Origin: a virus
Virus record (IMG/VR): IMGVR_UViG_3300013772_000005
Coordinates: 1-64,000 of that record
Strand: one strand, 5' to 3'
Length of the DNA: 64,000 nt
A program made the position numbers and the translations under genes. Of this stretch, positions 4,843 to 26,014 are shown piece by piece (positions within the stretch are counted from its first letter, which is position 1; each line of letters begins with the position of its first letter). Below the pieces are notes generated by a model. The model saw nothing but the letters and a program-made list of their open reading frames with translations, searched no databases and was not told the origin of the DNA.

Positions 4843-4925
4843 TTCACCACTCCTGCCAGGGCGCTTCCGCGCCGATGTTAAAAGATAAGCACCTGCCTGT
4901 TGGCTTTAGAACTGCACCTTCACGA

Positions 4926-5297
4926 TCACGTCTTCTTTCCTTTCAAGTTTTTGGCCCTTGTCTTTTCGGCTTTGAGTGCCCGCTCTTTCTTTCGCATGGG
5001 GATAAATCGGACCTGTGGGTTTTCGATACTGGTGATGAATTTGTCGTAGACCTTCTTCTCGGTGCCCATCGAGGCCCGGTAGCAGGTCGCCTCGTAGTCG
5101 CAGAAGTCGCAATTTTTGTCGTGCTCGCTCCAGTGGCCGAAGCACCCGATGGCGGGATCAGCTTCGGCCATTCCGGTGTGCAGCATGGCGCGGGCGATGG
5201 CAGCCTCGCACTGGTCGCGGCGAGCACCAGGGGGCACGGCGATATTGTGCTTCTTGCAGTAGGCGTGCAGCCGTTCAAGGCTCAGTGCTGTTACCAT
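4926..5297 (-). CDS. Cysteine-rich zinc-binding protein, 123 aa
   Basis: ATG 5297 overlaps the upstream stop (TGATG) and is preceded by GAGGG. Residues 1-45 look like a small SAP-like or helical domain (LERLHAYCKKHNIAVPPGAR). The centre has C-F-G-x9-C-x2-C-x5-C (GCFGHWSEHDKNCDFCDYEA), a zinc-finger pattern seen in assorted phage proteins. The C-terminus is very basic (RKKERALKAEKTRAKN), which suggests nucleic-acid binding. Confidence 0.7.
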   Translation of the reverse strand: MVTALSLERLHAYCKKHNIAVPPGARRDQCEAAIARAMLHTGMAEADPAIGCFGHWSEHDKNCDFCDYEATCYRASMGTEKKVYDKFITSIENPQVRFIPMRKKERALKAEKTRAKNLKGKKT

Positions 5298-23412: not shown

Positions 23413-24315
23413 TCAGTCCTCGATTGTAACTCTAAATGCCCGCTCGCTCCTATAGTGCTCGATCCGCGTCTCGCTGTGATCACGCAGGTACTTATTTCCC
23501 TGGATCAAAAAATCGTAGACCTCGGCCTTGTCTTTGCCAAGCGCGACGCTTTCGGCAAAGGTCTGCGCGCCCTTGGCAAGGCGAAGCGCCCGACCGACTC
23601 CCTGTTTCGTTTGGATCTCTGACTCTTGTAGCCGAGCGTTCACGAGCACGTCAATCGACGCAATGTCCTGGCCCTCGCCAAAGATGTTAGTAGCGATCAT
23701 GCACGGGATTTTTTTCTCGGCGAAGTCGCGCTTGACTTTGGCCCGCAGTTCGAGCGGGTCATCACCCGAGACGAAAACACCGTCTCCGGCCAGCATGGCC
23801 TCGATCAGCTTGCCGTGCTCGATCTGACGCACGAGCACCAGCACTTGCTTCTTCTCGTCGCGGATTTTCTTTCTGGCGATCGACGCCACGAGCGCGTTGA
23901 AGGCGGGATCAGCCGCCATGAACGAGTAGGCGTCTTTGTAGGAAAACTTTGACGCGAGCCGAATGCGGTAATTGACCGCGTGGACGTGCGCCGGCACGAG
24001 ATAGCCTTCTTCGATTAGGTCGCTGGTCGTCTTCTTCATCAGCACGTTGGACAGGACACCGAGCATCATCATGTCTTTGTTGTCGGTGCGCACGAGCGTG
24101 CCGGTGAAACCATAGCGCCAGTACGCCATCGACGTGACGGCGTTGAGCGTCAGGTAGCTGTCGGCAGCCGAGTTGGATACGAGCAGGCCATTGGCCACAT
24201 AATTATGCGTGTCCTCCACTTCTAGGTCGTAGACGTGCTCGCTGTCTGGCTTAACGTCTTCGACGGAAACAACGGTGCCACGGAAGAGCCCTCTGGTATC
24301 CTGACAATTCGCCAT
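23413..24315 (-). CDS. UvsW-like helicase C-terminal part, headed by a C-intein
   Basis: 300 aa from ATG 24315, which has a perfect GGAGGT six bases upstream. Residues 1-48 are a C-intein: block F EHVYDLEVEDTHNYVANGLL and block G ending V-S-N48, followed by Ser49 as the +1 extein residue. The remainder is the second RecA domain of an SF2 helicase (YGFTGTLVRTDNKDM for motif III, IATNIFGEGQDI for motif V, QGVGRALR for motif VI). Joined to the N-part by splicing, the sequence at the junction would read DEFHHC-SAADSY, the normal continuation of motif II. Usual penultimate His is Ser47 here. Confidence 0.8.
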   Translation of the reverse strand: MANCQDTRGLFRGTVVSVEDVKPDSEHVYDLEVEDTHNYVANGLLVSNSAADSYLTLNAVTSMAYWRYGFTGTLVRTDNKDMMMLGVLSNVLMKKTTSDLIEEGYLVPAHVHAVNYRIRLASKFSYKDAYSFMAADPAFNALVASIARKKIRDEKKQVLVLVRQIEHGKLIEAMLAGDGVFVSGDDPLELRAKVKRDFAEKKIPCMIATNIFGEGQDIASIDVLVNARLQESEIQTKQGVGRALRLAKGAQTFAESVALGKDKAEVYDFLIQGNKYLRDHSETRIEHYRSERAFRVTIED

Positions 24316-25025
24316 CCCAGTACCTCCAATCTTTTGTTTTTACGCTCATCAGCCGCTTGCCGCCGCTTGTGGCTCGTACCGTCGATCTCAACGGCGATCT
24401 TGTCTTTCACGAATGCCACGTCGATCTTGTAGTGATAGGGCCGCTGTCCATCTTTCAAAGCGACAACGTGTTCGGCGATAGCGTCAGGCCAAAGCGCCAA
24501 GCATGCCCGCTGTGTCGGCGTCAACTCACCGCCATTGCCGAATTGACCACGCCCATAAGGATTGTATTCACCGCGTGCCATTTTCTCGCGCAGCTTGGCG
24601 GCTTGACCAGCGCGCACCTCTGGTGAGCGATTGGTGTTATTTTTTGCGGCACGTTTAGAAAGGTGTTCCCGATAAGATCGGTTCGCACTTCGATGACGCA
24701 TGGCATCTATACGCGGAGTGTAGCCAAGGATGATCTGATCGCCTGGCACAAGCTCACCGGCTTTAATCTTGCCGAGAGCCGTAAAGATCTCGTGATTGGC
24801 TGTGACCGTGATCTCGCGGATCTTCCCATCTTCATCTTGCACGCGAACCCGCTTCATTGGCGGCGCCGGATAACGAAAGGCGTTGACGACACGCTTTGAT
24901 TCCCATGCGACACCTGTCCACGATTTTACTCTGGTGCGTCGTTCACCGGCCATGAAGCGATCATAGACTTCTTCAATCGAGCGATACGTCCCATAGGCAT
25001 CTGATATCTGTGTATTTTTTTCGCA
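24172..25025 (-). mobile_element. Intein with Vsr/DUF559-like nuclease, possibly split
   Basis: The intein begins at Cys (codon 25023-25025; block A CEKNTQISDAYGTYRSIEEV) and has block B ITVTANHEIFTALGKIKAGE. In place of a LAGLIDADG domain it carries a PD-(D/E)XK-like nuclease related to Vsr/DUF559 (YHYKIDVAFVKDKIAVEIDG, then RLEVLGWRIVRIPEG). The C-terminal splicing blocks lie in the next frame, ending at Asn (24172-24174). The break falls near 24280-24315. Vsr-like nucleases are known partners of fractured, split-intein genes in phages. The insertion point is inside motif II, a typical intein site. Confidence 0.8.
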
Positions 25026-25667
25026 ACAATGATGAAACTCGTCGATCATCAGCATGTGGAAACGCTGAAGCTGCTCGGGCTTGGCGCGCGGGATCTGGTG
25101 AATGTTGACGACGACGACCGGATAGTCGCCCTTGAGATCACCGCCGATCACGCCGTGCTTCGCATCTAGCCAGTAGGCGAAGTCGTCGGTGAGCTGCTCT
25201 TTGAGTCCCTTGTCAGGGACGACGACAAGCGTGGGGACGCGCCGCGCGTGAATGGTCATCGCCTGCATGATCGACTTACCGCCACCGGTGCCGACGACAC
25301 CGACGCCGCGCACACGCTCATCGGTGATTGCTTTCCACTCGCTCTGATGCGGCCGTGGTCGAAGGTCGGCTCTGAGCTTGAAGGTGAGCGATGGCTCCGG
25401 CTTCACGCGCAGGTCTTCGATCTTGTAATCGCTGATGCCCTGCTCTTTCAGGTAGCCGAGGACGGCAGCGGTGAGACCAGCCGGAAAAGAGCCGTCCTTC
25501 TTCATCAGGCGCTTGCGTCCGTCCCAGGCGCCCGGTGGCAGCCGTCGCATGGCGAAATGACTGTTGGGGACGTCAAAGCTCAGGAGATCGCTCACGCCTT
25601 TCATGACCAACGGCGGGGCAGCGATACGGGTGACGGCGTTTTTGATCTGAAGCGTGACGAGAGACAT
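24222..25667 (-). CDS. UvsW-like helicase N-terminal part plus N-intein and nuclease
   Basis: 481 aa from ATG 25667, chosen because CGGAG of the TTTAAATCGGAG leader is just upstream. Residues 1-214 are the N-extein: LRPHQ-like Q motif (LRPRPHQSEWKAI), motif I GTGGGKS (126-132), motif Ia LVVVPDKGL and motif II DEFHH (209-213). Residues 215 onward are the N-intein and nuclease domain, ending out of frame (SSVAPLFPSKTLSQTASTST) where the C-part starts. SF2 helicases of this type remodel recombination and replication forks. The product would be inactive unless spliced to the 23413..24315 product. Confidence 0.8.
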   Translation of the reverse strand: MSLVTLQIKNAVTRIAAPPLVMKGVSDLLSFDVPNSHFAMRRLPPGAWDGRKRLMKKDGSFPAGLTAAVLGYLKEQGISDYKIEDLRVKPEPSLTFKLRADLRPRPHQSEWKAITDERVRGVGVVGTGGGKSIMQAMTIHARRVPTLVVVPDKGLKEQLTDDFAYWLDAKHGVIGGDLKGDYPVVVVNIHQIPRAKPEQLQRFHMLMIDEFHHCCEKNTQISDAYGTYRSIEEVYDRFMAGERRTRVKSWTGVAWESKRVVNAFRYPAPPMKRVRVQDEDGKIREITVTANHEIFTALGKIKAGELVPGDQIILGYTPRIDAMRHRSANRSYREHLSKRAAKNNTNRSPEVRAGQAAKLREKMARGEYNPYGRGQFGNGGELTPTQRACLALWPDAIAEHVVALKDGQRPYHYKIDVAFVKDKIAVEIDGTSHKRRQAADERKNKRLEVLGWRIVRIPEGSSVAPLFPSKTLSQTASTSTT

Positions 25668-26014
25668 AAGGCTCCGATTTAAAGACACATAGGCAGCTTC
25701 ACCGGTGAAGCTGATCGTCGGGACACCAAGGGTTGCGTTGCTTACGTGTGGCTACCTGAATGAGAAAAGGAATGGCAAGAGGAAACAGCAAGTACCGAGA
25801 ATGCCAGAAGCCCACTTGCTTTCGCAGGCGGGCTTCGTTGGCACTTTTAACGGCGTGCTCGGCATCAGGGAAGTGCTAACCGGGCCAAGGAAGGCGCCGC
25901 TCCCACCCACTGATTATCTGGCATTACCAGCGGGGGACTTATTCTGTGTGGCGTGAGCCACTGAAGCCAGAAAGTCGCCCTTCAGCCTTACTATGCAGCC
26001 TTCGGCCGGTCAAC
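25668..26014. other. Intergenic region upstream of the helicase
   Basis: About 350 bases. Next to the helicase start is the leader TTTAAATCGGAG (25672-25683), then a perfect 20-bp palindrome CAGCTTCACCGGTGAAGCTG (25694-25713), which could be an operator. An imperfect hairpin with GAAGCCC/GGGCTTC arms (25808-25837) may terminate transcription from the lysis genes. The sigma-28-like element is absent here. A plus-strand frame (25705-25956) has no ribosome site and I do not call it. Confidence 0.5.
25672..25683 (-). promoter_or_regulatory. TTTAAATCGGAG translation leader
   Basis: Before the UvsW-like helicase ATG at 25667; decides that start over the in-frame codon at 25688. Confidence 0.6.

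Follow-up and report, generated by a model that had tools for sequence, protein, structure and literature searches.

A probable two-gene split intein in a phage uvsW helicase gene and its relatives with a Vsr-like nuclease nested out of frame

In the textbook intein, the endonuclease is encoded in frame. Fractured genes, in which split inteins are accompanied by EDxHD/Vsr-like nucleases, were reportedly described by Dassa et al. in 2009, with a free-standing nuclease gene located between the two halves. The nearest precedent for an endonuclease encoded out of frame is the ShiLan element, for which the authors found an interpretation as an intein or intron to be unsupported (PMC11855218). Here, we analyzed a stretch of 64,000 nucleotides (hereafter, the window), i.e., positions 1 to 64,000 of the 71,406-base virus record IMGVR_UViG_3300013772_000005, in which the gene for a UvsW-like helicase is interrupted by an intein in motif II and is divided between two overlapping open reading frames (ORFs). 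We conclude, with a probability of roughly 0.82, that this locus encodes a mobile, trans-splicing split intein that is distributed over two genes and derived from a cis intein with a nested nuclease gene.

The first ORF (N-ORF) matched ResIII, UvsW_N, intein_Nterm and DUF559 in the Pfam and NCBIfam searches, with the Pfam score for UvsW_N falling just under the cut-off (24.7 versus 25.3 bits), and the second ORF (C-ORF) matched intein_Cterm and Helicase_C. The two exteins matched the PHROG 16 DNA helicase family (E 1.5e-23 and 9.9e-42), and helicase motifs I, II and VI are all present when the exteins are joined. Because motifs I and II are encoded by the N-ORF and motif VI by the C-ORF, neither half alone can be a complete helicase. 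The N-intein and the C-intein are found on separate ORFs, each joined to one half of the extein, as is characteristic of a split intein, and the residues involved in splicing (Cys1, the TANH block, the terminal Asn and Ser+1) are all present. The initial annotation of this locus had reported the two ORFs, the frame change between them, the GGAGGT site and the ATG codon of the C-ORF, a C-intein of 48 aa and its terminal Asn at 24172, and all of these hold. Its placement of Cys1 at 25025 is corrected here to 25026-25028. There are two consecutive cysteine codons (25023-25028), and the first was chosen because of the alignment with the related virus contig L002 and with an intein-free relative, L003: the motif II junction (marked by a slash) is DEFHH/CLAKNT in L002 and DEFHH/SSAKSY in L003, and the downstream extein of the window begins with SAADSY.

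The same layout was found in three other viruses, from three other metagenomes (L002, L024 and L101), which share the two ORFs, the -1 step between them, the position of the C-ORF ATG at the nuclease G-W codons and the splicing residues listed above. The nuclease of the window is 46-50% identical to those of the three relatives. In L002 (108 kb), the first protein is 44% and the second 54% identical to that of the window, and the overlap between the ORFs is 91 nt. The C-ORFs of the four split loci start with MANCQDT, MENCQDT, MENCQDT and MESFQDT, and in all four this start is read one frame off the nuclease sequence GW(R/K)(I/V)(V/F)RIPE. A strong Shine-Dalgarno (SD) sequence is found in the window (GGAGGT) and in L002 (AAGGAGG), despite the different residues encoded there by the nuclease frame (LEV versus RRL). 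We also compared codons that specify identical amino acids: these codons were themselves identical in 64-86% of cases in the overlap versus 28-59% upstream, with a higher value in the overlap for every pair of split loci, as would be anticipated for a stretch that is read in both frames; the overlap is thus under a dual-frame constraint. The intein-free L003 has similar neighboring genes, indicating that the intein is variably present among relatives. No close DNA relatives of the window were found in phage records, and a DNA pattern for the start of the overlap retrieved only the three known split relatives and ten stretches without these parts. A split intein with a Vsr-like nuclease on its N-half, as proposed by the initial annotation, remains the best reading of this locus.

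Features of the split uvsW locus (positions in the window)
Feature	Position	Strand	Remark
N-ORF (481 aa)	24222-25667	-	UvsW N-half, N-intein and DUF559/Vsr-like nuclease in a single frame
N-extein	25029-25667	-	UvsW N-terminal domain and RecA-like domain 1
Motif I GTGGGKS	25272-25292	-	within N-extein
Motif II DEFHH	25029-25043	-	within N-extein
N-intein, ~103 aa	24720-25028	-	TIGR01445 match; end approximate
Cys1 of N-intein	25026-25028	-	
TxxH block VTANHEIF	24783-24806	-	within N-intein
DUF559/Vsr-like (EDxHD-type) nuclease	24225-24719	-	
Nuclease core	24297-24557	-	with YKID, ExDGxSH and GW
SD sequence GGAGGT	24322-24327	-	6 nt upstream of C-ORF ATG, within nuclease codons
C-ORF ATG	24313-24315	-	within nuclease codons
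C-ORF (300 aa)	23413-24315	-	C-intein and UvsW C-half; frame -1 versus N-ORF
C-intein, 48 aa	24172-24315	-	ends with VSN, then Ser+1
Terminal Asn of C-intein	24172-24174	-	
C-extein	23416-24171	-	helicase RecA-like domain 2; motif VI QGVGRALR
Dual-coding overlap, 94 nt	24222-24315	-	nuclease C-terminus and C-intein N-terminus in different frames
Repeated gene leader TTTAAATCGGAGCC	25670-25683	-	directly before N-ORF ATG; none at C-ORF

The nuclease matched DUF559 (PF04480) with 31.1 bits, above the Pfam gathering cut-off of 20.6. A structural model was obtained from an alignment of 44 relatives (mean predicted local distance difference test score, pLDDT, 84.5), and its best matches in the PDB were the catalytic domain of I-Bth0305I (3r3p, Z 10.8) and an endonuclease-like protein (3hrl, Z 10.5), with Vsr (1cw0, Z 8.5) ranked after two mitoribosome chains. 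Sequence profiles returned the same top two as the structure search, the match to 3r3p being weak (E 0.008). Invariant residues of the nuclease include D103, E114, D116, G117, H120, D127 and W139. The model suggests that this nuclease has the catalytic fold of the EDxHD/Vsr homing endonucleases, consistent with the Vsr-like identity suggested initially.

A wider family was found when the nuclease alone was searched in virus and genome contigs without regard to frame, after which N- and C-inteins were located by profiles in six frames. The counts below refer to loci with all three parts and with non-identical nucleases, several of which are close relatives and not independent. In 85 loci, the extein, N-intein, C-intein and second extein form one open ORF that encloses the nuclease ORF in the +1 frame; four loci are split as in the window, two (L170 and L198) are split into three ORFs, and in one (L227) the nuclease is fused in frame. 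The step from the nuclease to the C-intein is -1 in 91/91 out-of-frame cases, and never +1. This overlap of nuclease and C-intein, which is widespread in intact cis inteins and from which the split is most simply derived, had been missed by the initial annotation. The in-frame case, L227:3816-6497, is a UvrD-like helicase from an archaeal metagenome-assembled genome, with the same type of nuclease within its intein, and is the only one of its kind found. Nearly all inteins of the family are inserted directly after the Walker B/DExH residues (DE/C...HN/C), and in the uvsW gene of the window the insertion lies three residues downstream of that point (DEFHH/C). Pfam matches to Helicase_C were detected in 58/84 C-exteins and to ResIII in 63/83 N-exteins, and approximately nine members reside in clamp-loader genes (DNA_pol3_delta2).

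Using synonymous shuffling of the nuclease codons as a null model for the 85 nested loci, we found no stop codons in the host frame between the N- and C-intein (0 in 16,028 nuclease codons versus 690 expected). The third frame of the same stretches had 1024 stops versus 981 expected, i.e., it behaves as shuffled sequence, and the depletion is therefore specific to the host frame. It should be noted that the nested loci were chosen as open; only two others with that frame relation, L170 and L198, are not open, and they contain 35 and 23 stops, respectively, in the former host frame, which would show the outcome once this frame is no longer needed. The mean best SD energy before ATG codons in the nested loci was -5.27 kcal/mol in the nuclease frame versus -2.25 and -2.20 in the other frames, and an SD sequence of -6 kcal/mol or better was found in 38/85 loci for the nuclease frame versus 12/85 and 11/85 for the others; an earlier, weak test based on exact matches (25 loci versus 9 and 15 in control frames) was less clear than this energy-based ATG test. 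Change rates by codon position in close pairs show that the third position of the nuclease frame is the most free; therefore, the host-frame linker seems, from these rates, to be under pressure mainly to remain open. In the model of the host-frame intein of L207 (Ktedonobacter racemifer DSM 44963), the two ends form a Hint domain with high confidence (pLDDT 93-98 in residues 1-90 and 88-97 at the C-terminus), which matches the RecA and DnaB inteins (Z 20), and between them is a linker of ~160 residues without secondary structure (pLDDT ~50).

The nested layout is also present in isolated phages (Vibrio phage CP-T1, Corynebacterium phage phi673, Pseudomonas phage MR14, and Vibrio phages 1.027.O and 103E44.1); in their annotations the locus is a single gene and the nuclease does not appear, and such nucleases are overlooked because the host ORF covers them. 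In CP-T1 (L259:1537-4518; NC_019457.1 gp10) and phi673 (L260:1840-4350; NC_042354.1 gp43), the nuclease is nested in the intein of a helicase gene. A shortened, 200-aa intein with a truncated nested nuclease (L212:4652-5251, with the nuclease-frame ORF limited to 4896-5201) may represent the nested type in decay. In addition to its nested intein, the host helicase ORF of L094 (4762-8292) appears to contain a second intein-like insertion (CLDAETEILGEQGW... VVGNTGRGLRLH), located farther downstream. It is quite probable that dual-coding inteins are widespread in SF2 helicases and clamp loaders of phages and bacteria, with a Vsr-like homing nuclease translated separately from the +1 frame inside a cis intein that splices normally, and that split inteins have arisen on at least two occasions through breakage of the tie between the frames (the clade of the window, and L170 with L198).

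In a quick, unrooted tree of a short domain, the window groups with L002, L024 and L101 in a single clade (Shimodaira-Hasegawa-like approximate likelihood ratio test, SH-aLRT, 98), which adjoins L022, a nested cis intein at the same uvsW site. L170 and L198 group separately in the same tree, as a second clade, in which the split is due to a stop directly after the N-intein; the helicase gene is present there as three ORFs (L170:3995-6409, L198:4142-6436), an independent split. The clade of the window would thus most simply derive from the nested cis type, and the constant -1 step is likely to be the result of shared ancestry, together with the smaller number of stops that the nuclease meets in its -1 frame (the 690 expected stops given above, versus 981 in the other frame).

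The following scheme is suggested by the sequences. The intein in motif II of the phage UvsW helicase would be a mobile one, encoded by two overlapping genes on a shared transcript, with the first protein consisting of the N-half of the helicase, the N-intein and the homing nuclease. Ribosomes would also initiate at the internal SD sequence and ATG within the nuclease gene, producing the C-intein with the C-half of the helicase. The intein halves would then associate and splice in trans to yield a single helicase, the nuclease staying on the N-intein, and this nuclease would cut intein-free uvsW alleles, into which the element would be copied. The putative ancestor is a cis intein with a separate nuclease ORF nested out of frame: a change that placed the N-intein and the nuclease in one frame would have severed the C-intein, which was in the -1 frame of the nuclease beforehand, from the first frame, and the C-intein would subsequently have been translated from a start within the nuclease gene.

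Three alternatives have to be considered. Programmed -1 ribosomal frameshifting in the overlap would sometimes produce one long cis-splicing protein, so that there would be no true split; the step is invariably -1, which resembles bacterial frameshifting, and the shift could occur in a stretch of 118 nt that is free of stops. However, no in-phase slippery heptamer (XXXYYYZ, read as X-XXY-YYZ) is present in any of the four split loci, the ATG and the upstream purine-rich site are kept, an early shift in the overlap would remove the conserved end of the nuclease, and the -1 step is common to loci in which the nuclease is merely nested, and hence reflects ancestry rather than a slip site. We consider frameshifting to be improbable. 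Slightly less probable still is that the halves act as a non-covalent complex without splicing. Split phage enzymes of this kind are known, e.g., the gene-in-pieces nrdA of Aeromonas phage Aeh1 (PMC2988022), but four viruses have kept every splicing residue as well as the two halves of the intein, and the unspliced intein halves would lie within motif II. It is very unlikely that this is an ordinary cis intein with a single frame, disrupted by a sequencing or assembly indel (a possibility raised initially for 24280-24320) or by a recent frameshift mutation: a small indel could make two frames from one, and one in-frame relative (L227) exists, but the three diverged viruses share both ORFs and the -1 step, with a conserved overlap, and a sequencing indel is thereby ruled out.

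Several observations weigh against the two-gene split intein and its derivation from the nested type. The penultimate residue of the intein is Ser (VSN, TSN) in place of the usual His, and the SD sequence before the C-ORF is weak (AGGA) in L024 and L101. A clear SD sequence precedes the nuclease ATG in only ~45% of the nested loci, and the direction from nested to split rests on parsimony and on L022, given the limits of the tree noted above.

The leader TTTAAATCGGAG(C/G/A) is found seven times in the window (at 1924, 5810, 8954, 14039, 18401, 23388 and 25670) versus 0.24 copies expected by shuffling. The two copies that were read, 23388 and 25670, directly precede gene starts, and the repeat may be a promoter or a ribosome-binding leader that genes of this phage have in common.

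The origin of split inteins and fractured genes is an open question on which this family bears, because its living sequences include the cis type that is the likely ancestor, together with a split into two ORFs and an independent split into three; the nested relatives suggest how split genes of the window type arise. The out-of-frame nuclease departs from the textbook intein: it can be translated on its own from within the intein, which consequently does not have to accommodate it in its fold. Moreover, the split members are candidates for natural trans-splicing parts. We found no published description of a nuclease encoded out of frame inside an intein in the literature on inteins with DUF559, overlapping frames and uvsW, with subscription papers and preprints mostly beyond reach. 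Split inteins with Vsr-like nucleases are already known; for the nested inteins, a separate class may be warranted.

Compared with known systems, the nuclease domain of the window shares its fold with I-Bth0305I and E. coli Vsr; however, the former is intron-encoded and the latter is a repair enzyme, and neither is located within an intein. In the ShiLan element, too, an insertion conceals an endonuclease ORF in another frame and leaves the host frame open, but its nuclease is of the HNH type, whereas the nested family has a canonical intein as carrier and a DUF559/Vsr-like nuclease (PMC11855218). The uvsW gene of Salmonella phage SEA1 (and, judging by the match range, of Proteus phage PM2) is also split by an intein, and its N-half and N-intein align with those of the window; it differs in having three ORFs (L017:3962-6691), i.e., an N-half with a Hint domain, a separate NUMOD3 and TnsA-like nuclease in the middle, and a C-half with the C-intein. 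The fractured genes of Dassa et al. reportedly have in common with the window a gene split within the intein, a Vsr-like nuclease at the split, and a location in phage replication or metabolism genes. A free-standing nuclease between the halves is absent from the window, a separate nuclease ORF in a split gene of the family being found only in L170 and L198; instead, as the initial annotation had recognized, the window has a fusion of N-intein and nuclease in a single frame, and this nuclease overlaps the C-half by 94 nt out of frame.
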